From contig JAFWYF010000012.1 in assembly GCA_017522785.1 (NCBI GenBank), positions 1 through 64,000 of the forward strand: a stretch of DNA of 64,000 nucleotides. Direction: 5' to 3'. Made by a program: the position numbers and the translations under genes. The stretch's first letter is position 1. Every line of letters starts with the position of its first letter. Shown piece after piece: positions 7,260 through 13,858 of this stretch. The notes beneath the pieces were generated by a model. The model searched no databases. It was not told the origin of the DNA and saw only the letters and a program-made list of their open reading frames with translations. This DNA is from Bacteroidaceae bacterium (lineage in GTDB: Bacteria > Bacteroidota > Bacteroidia > Bacteroidales > Bacteroidaceae).

Positions 7260-8699
7260 TTATCTATGTGATATTGATTTCAATAGTGATATTGTTAACT
7301 TAAAATATATATAGTTCCTAAACATAATGAATGCTGTAATACAGCCGGCAGTTAATGAAATAGCAACCCTTAATATTATTTGTATGTCTGATGTCAAATA
7401 ATTTGTTAGTATTTGAACGGATATTATGATAGCTAATCTTGTAAAGATAGGCAAACAATCTTTTAACTGCTCTTTTATAGTATAATTGATGGGTTTACCA
7501 CAAAAGTAAAGATTGGGGAACAGTAATATAATAGAATAAATACTTAACCCTAATATAAAAATATGTATATCAAAAAATGATGTTATGGCAATAACCAATA
7601 TCATGAAACCTCTTCGTATTATTTCCAATAGTAAAACGGTTCTAGAGTCCCCCTTAACCATTAAAATGTTTTGGTTAATACTATGTAATGGAAATAGAAT
7701 ACCATTTATACCTAAAAGGATAAAAAAAGTTCCTGCTACTCGCCAAATTTTATTACCCATGAGCAACTCAAAAATGTCGCATGCGCATCCCATGAAAAGT
7801 GCCATGAGTAAGCCAACACACATCAGTGTTATACATATAATTTTCTTGTATGCTTCTCTGATATCGCCGGTTTCATTATTGATTTTTGCTAGTATCGGGT
7901 ATGTTACACTTTGTACCACCGATGTCATGGTAATTGACAAGGTCGATTTGACTCTATATGCCTGCGAGTAAAATCCCAATTCTGCAGGTGTATATATTTT
8001 CCCTATTGTAAGTGTATAAATGTTGTTAAAAAAAGTACCTATTAATCCCGATATCAACAAGTTTTTTGAGAAACCGAAATACTTCTTTAAAGAATTAACA
8101 GAAAACTTTAGATTAGGGATAAAATCTCCGGTCAACCATAACAGAATTGCTTTTAGCAAGTTCATTATTATGCCTTGAAATACTAATGCCCATACATTAC
8201 GATATATATATGCCAATATAATTGTGATGATGCATGACAATAGTGATGAAATAAGTGTGATTATACACAATTTTTTAAATCTTATCTCTTTCTGTAGTTT
8301 GGTACTTTGTACTATAGAAATTGCACTTAGAGGTAGGGCTAAAAATGTTACTTTACATACATCGTTAAGTATTTCCTGATTATAAAAATCGGCAATTACT
8401 CCAGACATCATATATAGTAATAGATATAGCAACAGAGAGACAAGCAGATTAAAATATAGGATTGTGGAATAGTCGGTTTTTGTTACCTCTTTCTCTCTAA
8501 TTAGTGCCTGCCCAAATCCGGAGTCAATAATAACATTCGCAAACGAGGAGAATACTACCACCATTCCCATTATTCCATAATCACTAGGACTAAGAAAACG
8601 GGCAAGGATAAATGTTGTCAATAGTTGTATACCAGTATGTGAATATGATTCGATATACTTCCATATAATATTTTTTGTAACCTGCTTACCGGTGCTCAT
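7260..8699 (-). CDS. Wzx-type polysaccharide flippase (MOP superfamily)
   Basis: A 479-residue polytopic membrane protein of the polysaccharide biosynthesis/WzxC type, which moves lipid-linked repeat units across the inner membrane. The N terminus KNIIWKYIESYSHTGIQLL, followed by ARFLSPSDYGIMGM, is the standard opening of this family, and about 14 helices follow. I choose the ATG at 8697-8699. Its ATGA overlaps the TGA of the upstream acyltransferase, which suggests translational coupling. A 15-codon extension is possible, but it would read through the neighbour's 3' end. It is a different subfamily from the second flippase at 27314. Confidence 0.9.
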   Translation of the reverse strand: MSTGKQVTKNIIWKYIESYSHTGIQLLTTFILARFLSPSDYGIMGMVVVFSSFANVIIDSGFGQALIREKEVTKTDYSTILYFNLLVSLLLYLLLYMMSGVIADFYNQEILNDVCKVTFLALPLSAISIVQSTKLQKEIRFKKLCIITLISSLLSCIITIILAYIYRNVWALVFQGIIMNLLKAILLWLTGDFIPNLKFSVNSLKKYFGFSKNLLISGLIGTFFNNIYTLTIGKIYTPAELGFYSQAYRVKSTLSITMTSVVQSVTYPILAKINNETGDIREAYKKIICITLMCVGLLMALFMGCACDIFELLMGNKIWRVAGTFFILLGINGILFPLHSINQNILMVKGDSRTVLLLEIIRRGFMILVIAITSFFDIHIFILGLSIYSIILLFPNLYFCGKPINYTIKEQLKDCLPIFTRLAIIISVQILTNYLTSDIQIILRVAISLTAGCITAFIMFRNYIYFKLTISLLKSISHR

Positions 8700-9487
8700 G
8701 ATTCTATAATTTTTGCTATTTCTGCTTCTATTGTAGGTCTCCAACCATTACTCATCTCAACCCCTTTCTTTTTTACTTTTGCAGGGTTGCCTACGAGTAA
8801 AAGGTTTTCCCCTTCTTCGCTGAAATTACCAGAAACCTTTGAAATACATGACACAACGCATCCGCTGGGTATAACAGTTCCTTTGCCTATTGTACAACCG
8901 TTGCCAATAAATACGTTGTTCCCAATATAAATGGGTTTTGTCCTTTGGTAGTATTTATCTGTAATTATGTTATGTAGAAAATGAAAATCGGTGTCAAAGA
9001 TTTGACTATTCCACGAAATACGTACATCATTTCCAATTGATATGTTTTTATAACATATAATTTTACTGTCAGCACCAAAACCTACATGGTTGCCTGCTTT
9101 CATAGTTGCATTGTTATTGATATATAATGTGCATCCGGGATGCAATTTTACATTTCCACCAATTGAAAGAGTTCCTCTATTATTGAAAAGTGTTTGTTTA
9201 TAATTTGTCTCCCATTGTGTTATTTTAATTACTCCAATAGACAGCATACCGGGGTGTATATGCTTTACATCGAAAATAATCGTTCCAATATTTTTTATTT
9301 TAACATTGTAGGATATAATTATTGGACATTTGATTGCATCTTTGAATGTTTGTGTTTTTAGATTGTACCAAATGGTCTTAACCCAATTAATCTTCCAAAA
9401 ATTATTTTTTATAACGAGTAGTGAGAATAATGTATCGCTATTTATTTTTTCTTTTATTTGTTTTTTTATTTTTTTTAAAATATTCAT
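8696..9487 (-). CDS. Hexapeptide-repeat (left-handed beta-helix) acyltransferase
   Basis: A 263-residue cytoplasmic O-acetyltransferase of the LbetaH/WbbJ type. Imperfect hexapeptide repeats run from about residue 95 to 225 (examples: VKLHPGCTLYINNNATM, NVFIGNGCTIGKGTVIPSG), with the loop HFLHN near residue 170 supplying the usual catalytic histidine. The N-terminal 90 residues are basic and not repeat-like. It should acetylate a sugar or nucleotide sugar used in the capsule. It is the first gene downstream of repeat copy A, whose 3' edge lies about 40 bases before the ATG. Its stop overlaps the flippase start by four bases. Confidence 0.85.
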   Translation of the reverse strand: MNILKKIKKQIKEKINSDTLFSLLVIKNNFWKINWVKTIWYNLKTQTFKDAIKCPIIISYNVKIKNIGTIIFDVKHIHPGMLSIGVIKITQWETNYKQTLFNNRGTLSIGGNVKLHPGCTLYINNNATMKAGNHVGFGADSKIICYKNISIGNDVRISWNSQIFDTDFHFLHNIITDKYYQRTKPIYIGNNVFIGNGCTIGKGTVIPSGCVVSCISKVSGNFSEEGENLLLVGNPAKVKKKGVEMSNGWRPTIEAEIAKIIES

Positions 9488-9527: not shown

Positions 9528-9734
9528 TAAATCGTTTCCTAAAGAAGAGGTGTAGACAAACGTCGGTTGCTTACCGGTGGGTATCGCCAAACACCCTTAA
9601 ACTACACAACCAATGATGCCTACACCTCGTATGTAGGCATTCACTCTCTTTGGGTGCATAGTTTTTTGTCTGTTTAAATTTGGCGAATTTAACCGGTAAA
9701 CTACCCTCTAAGAAGCAAATACTATGTTTCTTAT
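9528..9734 (-). repeat. Structured intergenic element, copy A
   Basis: One of three near-identical ~200-bp elements. Compared by eye with copy C it differs at about one position over the shared length. It contains a perfect 9-bp hairpin (ATGCCTACA/TGTAGGCAT with a 7-base loop) plus the same alternative pairing arms described under copy C. Its 3' edge, reading the minus strand, is about 40 bases upstream of the LbetaH acyltransferase ATG, so on the operon transcript it would be a 5' leader or intergenic RNA element. No open reading frame is evident. Confidence 0.8.
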
Positions 9735-9743
9735 ACTATTTTA

Positions 9744-9934
9744 AGAAGCTGTTTAAATTTATGTCCTTGAAATTTTTATAGGTCTTTTTTAGGATGTTTT
9801 TTCATTTTTCAAAGGCGCATAGCAGGCTATGTAACTGCGAAAAAGGGGAAAACAGACAAAAAAGAGCATAAAAAGGCAAGAACAACTCGCGGGCAATGTA
9901 ATCATTTTTTTCGAAAGAAATTTAAACAGTTTCT
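9744..9934. mobile_element. MITE-like element with 17-bp terminal inverted repeats
   Basis: The segment begins AGAAGCTGTTTAAATTT (9744-9760) and ends with the inverse, AAATTTAAACAGTTTCT (9918-9934), with one mismatch in 17. The ~190-bp body has no coding potential and contains a CATAGC/GCTATG mini-hairpin. No clear target-site duplication is visible. The core CTGTTTAAATTT also occurs inside all three copies of the neighbouring structured element, so the two may be related. The call as a non-autonomous transposable element rests only on its ends and size. Confidence 0.45.
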
Positions 9935-9989
9935 AATTATATATAATTTATTTTTTGTTTTTCACTGCCCCGTCGGCGCTTTGCCCGAC

Positions 9990-10009
9990 ACTCCCACGTT
10001 GTAACTAAC
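9990..10009 (-). repeat. 20-bp intergenic repeat (first copy), downstream of the GT26 gene
   Basis: The sequence matches 17 of 20 bases of 12846-12865. Both copies lie about 35 bases downstream of a minus-strand stop codon and within GC-richer sequence than the surroundings. Here a GTCGG/CCGAC hairpin (9972-9989) is adjacent. A transcription-termination or mRNA 3'-end role is possible. Confidence 0.4.
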
Positions 10010-10028
10010 AGGGCGGAATATAATATTA

Positions 10029-10048
10029 ATTAGCCACAAATGGCTAAT
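10029..10048 (-). terminator. Hairpin at the end of the GT26 gene
   Basis: ATTAGCCA/TGGCTAAT forms a perfect 8-bp stem with a 4-base loop. The GT26 TAG stop lies inside the stem, and a TA-rich but not strongly U-rich stretch follows. The same TTAGCCA...TGGCTAA stem recurs at 10833-10851 and 11170-11188, next to copies B and C. It could be a weak terminator or mRNA-stabilising hairpin. Confidence 0.45.
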
Positions 10049-10802
10049 CGCGCGTGGTAACAATTCCCCTCTTCTTTTTTATCTCCTTGTATAGTATTTG
10101 TGGCAGTGTTAATAGTATGTTGCCACAACGTTTAATCTGTTTTTTAGGTTCGGCAAAAATGCGATGCAAAAACTCCAAATGACAGCGACGCATCCATGCT
10201 GGGGCTCGGTTTGGTGCATTCTCTGCACCACTGTTAAAGTTAAATGCTGCACCAACAGCAATAGCCACTCCCTTTTTTAGATGGGGCAACAGGTGGTGCA
10301 TGAATTTCTCCTGTTTGGGTGCTCCCAAGGCAATCCAAATAATGTCGGCTCCATCGTTTTGTATATCCTGCGCAATTGTGGGATAGTCGAAATCTTCGAC
10401 ATTACAATAGGGTAGTTCGCGAAATAGCATGTTGGCAACATCGGGGTTTTTGCTTTGCAGGTTGTTTTGTAAAGCATCTAATGTGTTCTGCGATGTGCCA
10501 AGAAATATCATTCGATATTTTTTACTGCTGATAATATCGTTGAAAATATCGTTTCCACAATAATGTTGATAGCTTCTGCCATATATCCATTTGATGAAAA
10601 TAGGCACCCAACTGCTATCACAAATAGAAAAAATGCTTTTGTTTATCTCATTACGATAGGTCGGTGATTGGTGAACCATGGTTAATATGTTACCATCGGC
10701 AACACATATATAGCCGGCTTTTTCCTCTCGTATATGTTCTGCAATATTATTGTGTATGCTATTTTTATCGAATTCGTATTTTATACCGAAATACTCTTCC
10801 AT
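10044..10802 (-). CDS. WecG/TagA/CpsF family glycosyltransferase (GT26)
   Basis: A 252-residue GT26 enzyme, the family of N-acetylmannosaminuronic acid and N-acetylmannosamine transferases that act early on lipid-linked glycans. The family core is clear: YICVADGNILTMVHQSP (31-47), then ADIIWIALGAPKQEKFM around 150-168, GVAIAVGAAFNFNSG, and a C-terminal APAWMRRCHLEFLHRIFAEPKK segment that is usually membrane-associated. It is preceded by two copies of the structured element (10831-11410) and followed by a hairpin and copy A. It is therefore an island between repeats rather than tightly packed with other genes. Confidence 0.9.
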   Translation of the reverse strand: MEEYFGIKYEFDKNSIHNNIAEHIREEKAGYICVADGNILTMVHQSPTYRNEINKSIFSICDSSWVPIFIKWIYGRSYQHYCGNDIFNDIISSKKYRMIFLGTSQNTLDALQNNLQSKNPDVANMLFRELPYCNVEDFDYPTIAQDIQNDGADIIWIALGAPKQEKFMHHLLPHLKKGVAIAVGAAFNFNSGAENAPNRAPAWMRRCHLEFLHRIFAEPKKQIKRCGNILLTLPQILYKEIKKKRGIVTTRD

Positions 10803-10830
10803 GTTAAATATTTATTCGGTTTTGTTTTTT

Positions 10831-11066
10831 TGTTAGCCAAAAAATGGCTAATTGTTTTGTCCTCTTTAAATCGTTTCCAAAAGAAGAGGTGTAGACAAAC
10901 GTCGGTTGCTTACCGGTGGGTATCGCCAAACACCCTTAAACTACGCAACCAATGATGCCTACACCTCGTATGTAGGCATTCACTCTCTTTGGGTGCATAG
11001 TTCTTGTCTGTTTAAATTTGGCGAATTTAACCGGTAACTACCCTCTAAGTGTAAACACTATGTTTG
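10831..11066 (-). repeat. Structured intergenic element, copy B (extended)
   Basis: The core at 10867-11066 matches copies A and C with a few substitutions and single-base indels. Its left part (10831-10866), with the TTAGCCA/TGGCTAA hairpin, is shared only with copy C. The last ~20 bases (11046-11066) differ from A and C, which read AAGAAGC...TTTCTT there. It ends about 29 bases from the GT26 start codon, so it would be in that gene's 5' leader. Confidence 0.8.
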
Positions 11067-11167
11067 TTAATTATAAATATATCTTTTATTTATTGCTAAT
11101 TAGTATTATAATATAATTAGTCTGCACTTACCAATGCGGTATCTATCCATTTTCTTTATTTTATCAT

Positions 11168-11410
11168 TGTTAGCCAAAAAATGGCTAATTGCTTTATCCT
11201 CTTTAAATCGTTTCCTAAAGAAGAGGTGTAGACAAACGTCGGTTGCTTACCGGTGGGTATCGCCAAACACCCTTAAACTACGCAACCAATGATGCCTACA
11301 CCTCGTATGTAGGCATTCACTCTCTTTGGGTGCATAGTTTTTTGTCTGTTTAAATTTGGCGAATTTAACCGGTAAACTACCCTCTAAGAAGCAAATACTA
11401 TGTTTCTTAT
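11168..11410 (-). repeat. Structured intergenic element, copy C (extended)
   Basis: Reading the minus strand, arm ACCGGTTAAATTCGCCAAA (11355-11373) can pair with TTTGGCGATACCCACCGGT (11249-11267): six plus eight base pairs around a 5x5 internal loop. This encloses hairpin ATGCCTACA/TGTAGGCAT (11292-11316). Alternatively GAGGTGTAGGCA (11293-11304) can pair with TGTCTACACCTC (11223-11234) over 12 positions, one of them a G-U. The two folds exclude each other. The G-U pair would be an A-C mismatch if the plus strand were transcribed, which favours an RNA in the operon direction. Between copies B and C (11067-11167) there is only AT-rich sequence with no gene. Confidence 0.8.
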
Positions 11411-11436
11411 ATTTTATAATGTGTTTCTTATTCTTC

Positions 11437-12348
11437 TTATTTTTGCGAAACTATATAACCTATTATTATACCCAGAATTCCAATGACAAATCCGGCCCAA
11501 CCAATTTGTATGCCTTTAAGACTATATTTAATGGATTTTTCTGTTACGGTATGTTGCCACTCTGCAAGGGCTTTCATTTGTAAATGGTTAATACTTTCAA
11601 TTGTATTTTTTATATTGAAACAGCATTGGCGCTCTACCTTATATTCCTCATTATTGTGTGCAAGTGAGAATCGTTCATTATATATGGAATTATATAATGC
11701 ATTAAAATATAATTCTTCTCCCTTTGCATTTAAATATAATCCCTCAATGGTTCTAATATGTTTACCGCGTGTAACGAAATCGTTCTTAGAATCGCTTTTA
11801 TCAAAGAATTTATTGGATATTTCTTTTATCCTCGTTTTGTATGTATCGAAAATAATTTCGTATTGAGTTAAATAGAATAGTAGTGCCGGGTTATTTGTTG
11901 CGTTTAGGTTTATCTTTTCCCATTTATCGTTTACATAGACTCTGAGATTGCCATCGGCCGATTGGTCGTTGTTGAACTCGTGATTGTGATAGAACTCTTT
12001 GAGTTTGTGATAAATGGCAGGTGGAAATGTGTTATTACGAAAAAGTGGAGACTCTATTTTACGTAAAAACTTGTATTGGTGTAATCCATTGCCACTTTTA
12101 CTGTCAAGTAAAAAGTCGAATGAATATTCGGTGGGCGCTCCATTTCCATCTTTTACTATTATTCTGAAATCTTCTCTGTCCTCGTTAATGAGTGAAATTT
12201 CTATGAATAATTTTTCATCGATAGACTTTTCCATGCCATCGGAAAAATCGTTAATTTTAATAACTTTATCTTTGTCCAATATATTATGTATTCCATGTGA
12301 TGAACAAGGCATCCATAATACACAATACGACTCTTTTATGTCTTTCAT
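11437..12348 (-). CDS. Hypothetical protein with C-terminal transmembrane anchor
   Basis: A 303-residue protein I do not recognise. It has no N-terminal signal. The body is hydrophilic and mixed alpha/beta in character, with a charged, probably helical central part (about 165-270). A single strong hydrophobic helix lies at about 281-299, preceded by a lysine-containing segment and followed by SQK, so it is probably tail-anchored in the inner membrane with its domain in the cytoplasm. It starts 21 bases after the 98-residue gene, so the two form a pair. The pair lies beside an AbiH-family gene inside the capsule locus. A defence or toxin role can only be inferred from this context. Confidence 0.7.
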   Translation of the reverse strand: MKDIKESYCVLWMPCSSHGIHNILDKDKVIKINDFSDGMEKSIDEKLFIEISLINEDREDFRIIVKDGNGAPTEYSFDFLLDSKSGNGLHQYKFLRKIESPLFRNNTFPPAIYHKLKEFYHNHEFNNDQSADGNLRVYVNDKWEKINLNATNNPALLFYLTQYEIIFDTYKTRIKEISNKFFDKSDSKNDFVTRGKHIRTIEGLYLNAKGEELYFNALYNSIYNERFSLAHNNEEYKVERQCCFNIKNTIESINHLQMKALAEWQHTVTEKSIKYSLKGIQIGWAGFVIGILGIIIGYIVSQK

Positions 12349-12898: not shown

Positions 12899-13858
12899 CT
12901 AATAGAGATTGTTGTTTTGTCTGTAATGTGAAAACAATATACTCTCTCGTTCGCTACTTGTTTGCCACTCATATTCTATGAACCTTTTAACCTGCTCTGT
13001 TACACCGTCCTTTGTGCAAATGACCTCGAACTTGTTAAGGCCAAACAGCAGTTCGGTGCTTTTCTCGTTCATGTTGCGCAGTTGGCGCATTATCTCTATG
13101 CGCGATGCATTGTCGTAGGTGAATATGGTAACTCGCTTGCTCTCCTTGCGGCTTTTACTGCTACGGCACAACTCCACGAAAAAGTCGCTGAAGTAGGTGT
13201 AGTCGATGGGGCTCAACGAGTGCCCGAAAATTGTTATCTCATCGGCCTCGGCAATGTCGTAGCGAAGGGTGTTCGAACGGTAGTGGGGGCTAAAGGTCTT
13301 GTACATGCATTGAAGGTCGTCGGGAACATCGGTCTGTTCGTTGAAACCTATTATTATATTGTTCTCCTTTATGCTTCCATGTACGTGGGTTATTTTTTCA
13401 CCTGTATTGGCCGGCAAGTCCAATTTCTGTTTTATTGTGGCTAGGTCGGTATAGTTAAATGTGTATATATTCTCGTATTTCCCGTTTTTAACTATTGCTT
13501 GCAACACCATGGCGGCTATGCTATCTTTATTTATACAGGCTTGTGCCTCTTCGTTCTTCAGATAATCGTGCAACGATGTTACAAGGCTGTGATAGTCGGC
13601 AATGCAGTTGTTGAAATAGCCTTGTGAGTATCTGACGGGCAATGATTGCCTGAAAAACTTACGGGAATAGTTCTCCAGTGTCTGCTCTATGTCGAACCAG
13701 TTGCTGTTCGACGATGCTTTGTCCAACTCCACTCCCAAACCGCTTTTGCTATTGCCCTCGCTAAAAGGCCAATAGGTGCTTTTGGCATAATCGCTATAGC
13801 GGGTGTTAAGCCCCAAATCGATGTCGAAACCGTTGCCTAATATCGCTATCTTCTTCAT
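12899..13858 (-). CDS. AbiH-family protein (putative phage abortive infection)
   Basis: A 319-residue cytoplasmic protein matching the AbiH family, founded by a lactococcal abortive-infection gene. The family landmarks are present: ILGNGFDIDLGLNTRYSDY at the N terminus (GNGFD 8-12), FNYTD (134-138), HVHG (158-161) followed by IIIGFNEQ, and FGHSLSPID (211-219). The GNGFD loop resembles a nucleotide-binding site, but the biochemical activity is not something I can read from the sequence. It follows ugd by 50 bases, with a perfect palindrome in the gap, and is separated by 232 bases from the downstream unknown pair. Base composition is closer to ugd than to the AT-rich distal capsule genes. Confidence 0.8.
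   Translation of the reverse strand: MKKIAILGNGFDIDLGLNTRYSDYAKSTYWPFSEGNSKSGLGVELDKASSNSNWFDIEQTLENYSRKFFRQSLPVRYSQGYFNNCIADYHSLVTSLHDYLKNEEAQACINKDSIAAMVLQAIVKNGKYENIYTFNYTDLATIKQKLDLPANTGEKITHVHGSIKENNIIIGFNEQTDVPDDLQCMYKTFSPHYRSNTLRYDIAEADEITIFGHSLSPIDYTYFSDFFVELCRSSKSRKESKRVTIFTYDNASRIEIMRQLRNMNEKSTELLFGLNKFEVICTKDGVTEQVKRFIEYEWQTSSERESILFSHYRQNNNLY

Follow-up and report, generated by a model that had tools for sequence, protein, structure and literature searches.

A capsule gene cluster of a Bacteroidaceae bacterium carries three copies of a probable leader RNA with two mutually exclusive folds

What is the role of three almost identical, non-coding elements lying within a capsule gene cluster? 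The elements are found in the first 64,000 nucleotides (nt) of contig JAFWYF010000012.1 of a Bacteroidaceae bacterium (GenBank assembly GCA_017522785.1; this whole stretch is hereafter referred to as the window), and a first-pass annotation made from the letters alone had proposed that each of them can adopt two mutually exclusive RNA folds. We show here that the copies, designated A, B and C, belong to an RNA family that recurs across Bacteroidota and in contigs classed as viral, and that both exclusive folds, which share one arm, are conserved by compensatory change. On the basis of covariation, folding predictions and the placement of the genes, the promoter-like box and the T-run, we consider it probable that the copies represent a leader RNA family of Bacteroidota, likely transcribed from the minus strand and predicted to attenuate transcription in cis by means of the two folds.

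Copies A and C differ at only 1 of 208 positions (position 9606), where a minus-strand C-G pair becomes U-G and the pairing is kept; copy B is 95–96% identical to the other two, with small gaps. No open reading frame (ORF) of at least 80 amino acids (aa) in the ORF list of the window overlaps any of the copies. The near-identity and non-coding character claimed by the first-pass annotation thus held, and the two stems that it had described were both present: a long stem of 14 pairs (6 + 8 pairs flanking a 5 × 5 loop) and an exclusive stem of 12 positions that form 12 pairs, one of them G-U. The 5 × 5 loop holds ACC, which is able to pair with a GGT beyond the loop helix to make a pseudoknot, and this closing pair (GGY/RCC) covaries. 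The minus-strand folding z was -8.0 for copy C and -6.2 for each of copies A and B, with 0 of 200 shuffles folding that well for each copy; the plus strand of copy C gave -6.4. A BLAST search of the source genome with the element returned three matches, all inside the window.

When the source genome and 60 relatives were searched by BLAST at an E-value of 1e-3, matches appeared in the source genome only. At E-values up to 10 against 44 genomes of the genus, two short stretches recurred, which led to a diverged family. The pattern GGYATCGCCAAAYRCC had 64 matches in 35 of the 44 genus genomes, including four in the source genome, as against 3 for the reversed pattern; it permits eight letter combinations, of which only GGC..GCC and GGT..ACC were found. 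A gapped pattern gave at least 120 stretches in named genomes. Among the 80 of these that we used, 75 were titled as Bacteroidota (Paraprevotella, Parabacteroides, Bacteroides, Barnesiella, Coprobacter, Dysgonomonas, Alistipes, Chryseobacterium, Tenacibaculum and many metagenome-assembled genomes, MAGs), one as an uncultured bacterium, one as a Kiritimatiellae MAG and one as a Lentisphaerae MAG. Two stretches, L160 (Chloroflexi) and L168 (Stutzerimonas), were judged to be chance matches and dropped; their E-values with the covariance model R1 were 5.7 and 4.3.

Model R1, built on 49 members of the shorter class, recovered 28 of the 28 further loci tested, among them 21 longer-class loci, with no E-value above 2.4e-5. 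Of the 247 genomes surveyed in the order, 92 carried R1 members at E 1e-3, covering 72 of 174 genera; in a survey of the phylum at E 1e-5, 23 of 296 genomes did so, both tallies including the source genome. The order survey scored 11 candidates per genome, and counts of 11 are lower bounds; the 14 genomes already known as carriers have 1 to 9 members each, with 8 in Paraprevotella clara, 9 in Parabacteroides sp. An277 and 4 in Bacteroides timonensis. The source genome has five members, namely the three window copies, C15:114403-114633 (E 2.2e-5) and C35:41897-42076 (E 9.3e-4). In viral contigs, the gapped pattern identified 51 stretches with members. A BLAST search of phages and plasmids with the element gave nothing useful (four phage matches at E 0.3 were judged chance), an exact 19-base search of the viral contigs gave no match, and neither did a plasmid search using another family member. 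The Kiritimatiellae and Lentisphaerae MAGs (L183 and L196), which lie outside Bacteroidota by record title, contain 3 and 2 members, respectively, at R1 E-values of 1e-6 to 1e-8, reflecting either transfer or a binning error.

To evaluate the folds, we scanned all column pairs of alignment A3 (49 sequences) for helices. The top two helices share columns 110–118, which pair with columns 92–100 to form the P3 antiterminator hairpin and with columns 196–204 to form the terminator. In P3, 95.0% of the cells are paired and 7 of the 9 pairs have double changes; in the terminator stem, the values are 95.5% and 5 of 9. Sliding the partner as a control lowered the paired cells to 32–48%. The covariation scores of the two helices were reached by 0 of 500 shuffles, and their numbers of double-change pairs by 8 (P3) and 1 (terminator) of 500. 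In P2 (75% paired) and in the region 1:region 2 hairpin (80% paired), all 6 pairs of each helix show double changes. G-U pairs are common in both P3 and the terminator, as exemplified by U-G in 40 of 49 sequences at one P3 pair; thus, the minus strand, which the first-pass annotation had favored because of a single G-U pair, fits as the RNA.

An arm-swap test gave a further measure of the pairings. It used 133 of 139 elements; five without a T-run and one near a contig end were left out, both here and in the folding tests below. The energies of own and swapped arms were -12.5 and -4.8 kcal/mol for P1, -23.6 and -14.9 kcal/mol for P2 (the window of which overlaps P3), -19.8 and -15.4 kcal/mol for the terminator, and -10.4 and -7.9 kcal/mol for region 1:2, whereas two negative controls showed no gain (-2.64 and -2.65 kcal/mol; -4.30 and -4.97 kcal/mol). 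With relatedness ignored, the own arm beat the swapped median in 132 (P1), 129 (P2), 125 (terminator) and 111 (region 1:2) of the 133 elements. The pairing of P0 with the terminator end was weaker, the own arm winning in 89 of 133, as compared with 70 and 49 in the two negative controls. Among the outcomes that the first-pass annotation had named as counting against it were homologues that differ without compensatory change; a search for such cases brought out compensatory change instead, and both of the exclusive folds that it had proposed are conserved in the family.

The helix between loop 1 and loop 2 is invariant in A3. This set had been chosen by the search pattern, and the invariance is uninformative because the pattern had fixed loop letters. 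Among the members found with R1, more than 10 other loop-helix sequences occur and change in pairs, including ATCACCAAA/TTTGGTGAT, CGACCAA/TTGGTCG, CTGGTA/TACCAG and CTGACAA/TTTGTCAG; the C35 copy of the source genome has CCTAGGAAA/TTTCCTAGG. In alignment A5 (62 rows), all 62 rows form the six core loop pairs, with 27, 27, 3, 26, 21 and 1 double changes, counts that lean to paired as R1 contains the loop helix and alignments A4 and A5 were fitted to R1. The three outer pairs of the helix are broken or missing in some rows. RNAalifold on A4 gave the same long hairpin, 20 of the 25 pairs having double changes; 2 and 3 opposite-strand palindrome matches in A4 and A5, respectively, were kept for RNAalifold and the loop-pair counts. 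We had considered an invariant loop sequence that binds a protein or ligand and rejected it, as the invariance is partly made by the pattern and R1 members vary their loops pairwise. A small conserved core is visible, consisting of GG, CC and an A-rich strand beside loop 1.

Judging from sequence motifs, the element usually appears to sit in a 5′ leader, on the same strand as the gene and between a promoter and the start codon. Among the 110 elements with enough flanking sequence, 89 have a same-strand ATG-initiated ORF of at least 80 aa just downstream (divergent control, 32), 102 have a T-run at the expected site (control window, 56) and 67 have upstream the motif TAnnTTTG (reversed motif, 6), which we take to be the Bacteroidota -7 box. 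For 117 elements with an ORF, opposite-strand matches removed, the box is found upstream in 72; the gap from T-run to ATG (median, 68 nt) holds it in 3 and the reversed motif in 12. The 51 viral-contig members show the same arrangement, with a downstream ORF of at least 45 aa in 51, a box in 48 and a T-run in 45. The suggestion of the first-pass annotation that the elements could form a family of leaders is supported by the covarying folds and by the usual location of the elements, behind a promoter-like box and ahead of a co-directional gene. As a separate observation, ACATA occurs 40–90 nt before loop 1 in 46 of 136 members (reversed string, 6 of 136), and short ORFs running from CCTATG to a stop were often seen by eye upstream of the ACATA region.

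The downstream genes of the family are enriched for products with an export-like appearance, such as BspA-type leucine-rich repeat (LRR) proteins, lipoproteins and the products of moron-like phage genes, and include some capsule and restriction genes. By Pfam, 12 of 59, 21 of 53 and 5 of 84 proteins in three downstream sets were of the BspA-type LRR kind; TonB receptor plugs accounted for 8 of the 84, which by sequence are eight similar proteins of one outlying genus, and EpsG, polysaccharide export, PEGA, restriction and methylase domains were singletons. No coherent metabolic target set, as expected for a metabolite riboswitch, was found among these 59, 53 and 84 proteins. A crude hydropathy rule, applied in place of a dedicated predictor to proteins of at least 150 aa, called 37 of 46, 33 of 47 and 37 of 60 downstream proteins export-like; among the remaining ORFs of these loci, it did so for 39 of 161, 38 of 172 and 11 of 59. 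The downstream ORFs in viral contigs include 32 that are distinct by N-terminus, 19 of them signal-like. In one viral contig (L352), the unit is oriented against the neighboring head-morphogenesis, portal and terminase genes, in the fashion of a moron; in another (L375), it lies downstream of an endolysin gene and leads an HsdR_N-like endonuclease. We also noticed similar proteins of ~70–90 aa directly downstream in different genomes (L245, L255, L259, L301, L130, L189 and L192), with the pattern HIG..I...L......W(F/L)A....C.R...Y.IF; that of L255 matches Pfam HTH_3, and those of L245 and L259 had no match.

How might the two folds work? In staged folding of the growing RNA, the region 1:2 hairpin is predicted to form first (127 of 133 elements), followed by P2/P3 and then by the loop helix; once the 3′ arm of P1 emerges, the long hairpin is locked in 133 of 133, and it is kept in 125 of 133 at full length. 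At full-length equilibrium, the loop helix was predicted at above 0.5 in 126 of 133. When the 5′ domain was held apart, 126 of 133 elements were predicted to form the terminator, the median cost being 15 kcal/mol. The window copies take the same predicted path, including the terminator with the 5′ domain apart. This predicted behavior suggests the anatomy of an attenuator with read-through as its default and the 5′ hairpin as its sensor. In the read-through fold, P1, the loop 1:loop 2 helix, P2 and P3 would make one long hairpin in which the 5′ arm of the terminator is masked; the GGY/RCC pair would turn this hairpin into a pseudoknot. In the stop fold, the 5′ segment would fold up separately into the region 1:region 2 hairpin, leaving the 3′ arm of P3/P2 free to form the terminator with the last arm before the T-run. 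Holding the 5′ hairpin apart would thus lead to termination; this hairpin is the likely sensor, and what keeps it open could be a small molecule, a protein, a second RNA or the act of translation. The window copies would adjust transcription within the minus-strand capsule cluster, before the GT26 and acetyltransferase-type genes.

Several results weigh against this reading. Equilibrium prediction favors read-through in 126 of 133 elements and the terminator in only 2, so that termination would need a kinetic effect or a further factor; moreover, the energy model is a nested one, with which the pseudoknot cannot be scored. T-runs are frequent in AT-rich DNA, as the control window given above attests. 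An ORF of at least 80 aa is lacking nearby in 21 of 110 elements, 6 of 90 model-found loci lack one of 55 aa, and eight loci of one genus have 171–265 nt before the next ORF begins. In the window copies themselves, the 170 nt upstream of loop 1 contain no exact TAnnTTTG box, only a TAnnTTCG variant at -91 for copy C, and the T-tail is interrupted. Because of the missing exact box and the broken T-tail, the promoter and terminator strength of the window copies is uncertain, and they may be transcribed from further upstream in the capsule cluster. At the eight loci mentioned (L305, L306, L309, L312, L315, L321, L329 and L330; genus g179), the next ORF encodes by sequence a TonB-dependent receptor, a possible single-target case.

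Could the elements be stand-alone small RNAs that act in trans from their own promoter and terminator, their location before genes being secondary? The promoter-like box and the T-run would bound an RNA of roughly 200–300 nt, and the 21 elements without a nearby ORF of the stated length, several of which have only a shorter one, are in keeping with this idea. In the accessible text of PMC11697453, FopS of Bacteroides thetaiotaomicron is described as a set of multicopy small RNAs that have a single-stranded 5′ stretch with a seed, then a terminator, and that were deposited in Rfam. FopS resembles the present element in being multicopy, in occurring in Bacteroidota, and in having its own promoter, a terminator hairpin and a surface-protein theme, but the element has extensive conserved structure 5′ of the terminator and no Rfam match. 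Against action in trans, the co-directional genes begin close behind the T-run (median, 68 nt), with a -7 box in the gap in only 3 of 117 cases, and the conserved read-through fold shares the terminator arm, whereas a plain terminator needs no such fold. Furthermore, the loop sequences vary freely and are therefore not a shared seed. We regard a trans-acting small RNA as unlikely.

The put RNA and EAR are processive antiterminator RNAs, and the pseudoknotted hairpin might similarly modify RNA polymerase, enabling it to pass the element's own terminator as well as later ones in accessory operons. The location of the copies within a capsule gene cluster, a polysaccharide-export protein among the downstream genes (1 of 84, by sequence probably that of L277) and read-through as the predicted default would suit this explanation. 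It is nevertheless improbable in our judgment: the element contains a conserved terminator that shares the hairpin arm, which accounts for read-through without action on the polymerase, and the Rfam searches did not match the element to EAR (epsC). The EAR/epsC motif (RF01735) and JUMPstart (RF01707) are cis elements at polysaccharide genes tied to elongation or antitermination, according to the accessible text of PMC2864571. Unlike them, the present family is Bacteroidota-wide, has polysaccharide genes as a minority downstream and lacks an Rfam match.

Known attenuators of transcription include trp-type leaders, which follow a 1:2 / 2:3 / 3:4 pairing logic, and T-box and riboswitch expression platforms. 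The element resembles these leaders in having three conserved exclusive pairings in order, the last of which is an intrinsic terminator, and in its location between a promoter-like box and a gene. Unlike them, it has an antiterminator that includes a freely varying loop-loop helix and downstream genes that are metabolically unrelated and often export-like; no leader peptide or known aptamer was found in it, only short start-stop ORFs seen by eye. These ORFs raise a special form of the attenuator, in which translation would be sensed through a leader peptide or minimal ORF lying before region 1: by eye, the stretch from the -7 box to region 1 of many shorter-class members holds a CCTATG with a stop only a few codons later. 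We consider such ribosome mediation quite unlikely, since the ORFs lie ~40–50 nt upstream of region 1, which looks too distant for masking by a stalled ribosome, and most longer-class members lack the CCTATG context (by eye).

Palindromic mobile DNA without RNA function, of the kind of a miniature inverted-repeat transposable element (MITE), is suggested by three near-identical copies in 2 kb, by a MITE-like repeat with 13 genome matches adjoining copy A (9737-9945) and by the members in viral contigs, but is very improbable given that BLAST finds only the three window copies in the source genome, as against 13 for the neighboring repeat, that the other two source-genome members differ in sequence, one having a different and still paired loop helix, that gene orientation, -7 box and T-run are all biased, and that the many G-U pairs of P3 and the terminator pair on one strand only. 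An integron attC site and a retron were dropped by judgment, as no integrase or reverse-transcriptase domain occurs in the 20 scanned window ORFs and the attenuator logic fits better.

That the first-pass annotation did not recognize a described RNA family agrees with our searches. At the gathering score, Rfam 15 had no match on the element in the window or in 17 genus loci, in 15 diverse loci it matched only tRNA and a TPP (thiamine pyrophosphate) riboswitch, both away from the element, and lax searches gave scattered sub-threshold matches only. The accessible text of Fremin and Bhatt 2021 (PMC8040213) reports 3161 predicted structured RNA candidates from human microbiomes, including palindromic ones of Bacteroidetes with terminators, and parts of the present family could be among them. 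A description of the family is absent from the accessible text of PMC11697453, PMC8040213, PMC7366714 and PMC2864571. A literature search whose scope left out most subscription papers and supplements found no description either, and the family may exist unnamed within published candidate lists. For motif strings of the element, the papers listed by a search of the available literature text were unrelated by title.

Bacteroidota dominate the gut, and to our knowledge few of their regulatory RNAs are known. A conserved switch that Rfam does not match would offer a way to study how accessory surface genes are coordinated in this phylum, and the element allows direct mutate-and-restore tests. If no ligand exists, it would represent an unusual class of attenuator defined by a freely varying loop-loop lock. 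We tentatively raise the broader possibility, about which we are more doubtful than confident, of a portable phylum-wide switch: Bacteroidota and their phages would place the element before accessory genes (surface LRR, lipoprotein morons, restriction, capsule), and one cellular signal, received through the 5′ hairpin and the pseudoknot core, would set the whole accessory surface repertoire together.

Table 1. Positions in the window of the three copies, their structural parts and the adjacent downstream genes
Feature	Position	Strand	Remarks
Copy A, leader element	9528..9735	-	Upstream of hexapeptide-transferase ORF 8696-9487; R1 E 3.3e-12
Copy B, leader element	10831..11069	-	Upstream of GT26 ORF 10044-10802; R1 E 2.8e-12 (copy was part of R1)
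Copy C, leader element	11168..11415	-	Tandem, upstream of copy B; right after stop of ORF 11437-12348; R1 E 8.4e-12 (copy was part of R1)
P1 5′ arm	C 11368..11374; A 9692-9698; B 11030-11036	-	Own-arm pairing beats swapped in 132/133 family members
Loop 1, partner of loop 2	C 11355..11362; A 9679-9686; B 11017-11024	-	Loop-helix pairing in alignment
P3 5′ arm, antiterminator hairpin	C 11308..11316; A 9632-9640; B 10971-10979	-	Covariation
P3 3′ arm, also terminator 5′ arm	C 11292..11304; A 9616-9628; B 10955-10967	-	Covariation, both helices
Hairpin B, GGY-loop 2-RCC	C 11256..11271; A 9580-9595; B 10919-10934	-	Motif matches and covariation
P1 3′ arm	C 11245..11254; A 9569-9578; B 10908-10917	-	Arm-swap test
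Terminator 3′ arm	C 11223..11234; A 9547-9558; B 10886-10897	-	Covariation
T-rich tail TTCTTT behind terminator arm	C 11217..11222; A 9541-9546; B 10880-10885	-	Sequence
Hexapeptide transferase ORF	8696..9487	-	Pfam PF00132; downstream of copy A
WecG/TagA/CpsF (GT26) ORF	10044..10802	-	Glyco_tran_WecG PF03808; downstream of copies C then B

The placement of the copies just upstream of the LbetaH and GT26 genes, as the first-pass annotation had it, is borne out by the positions in Table 1. Pfam matches of the window ORFs show that all three copies sit within a minus-strand capsule gene cluster, with genes for an export protein, a GNVR/AAA_31 protein (Wzc-like) and a UDP-sugar dehydrogenase upstream of them and genes for the GT26 protein, the hexapeptide transferase, a flippase and a Wzy_C protein downstream. 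The MITE-like repeat mentioned above has inverted ends and begins 2 nt past the end of copy A; its 13 source-genome matches include itself, and several are partial. Hairpins of the form TTAGCCA..TGGCTAA occur three times (10030-10047, 10833-10851 and 11170-11188; expectation from shuffling, 0), the first at the end of the GT26 gene and the other two inside copies B and C, in their 3′ part. The cluster also contains an AbiH-type phage-defense gene (12899-13858), which lies beside two ORFs without a Pfam match.

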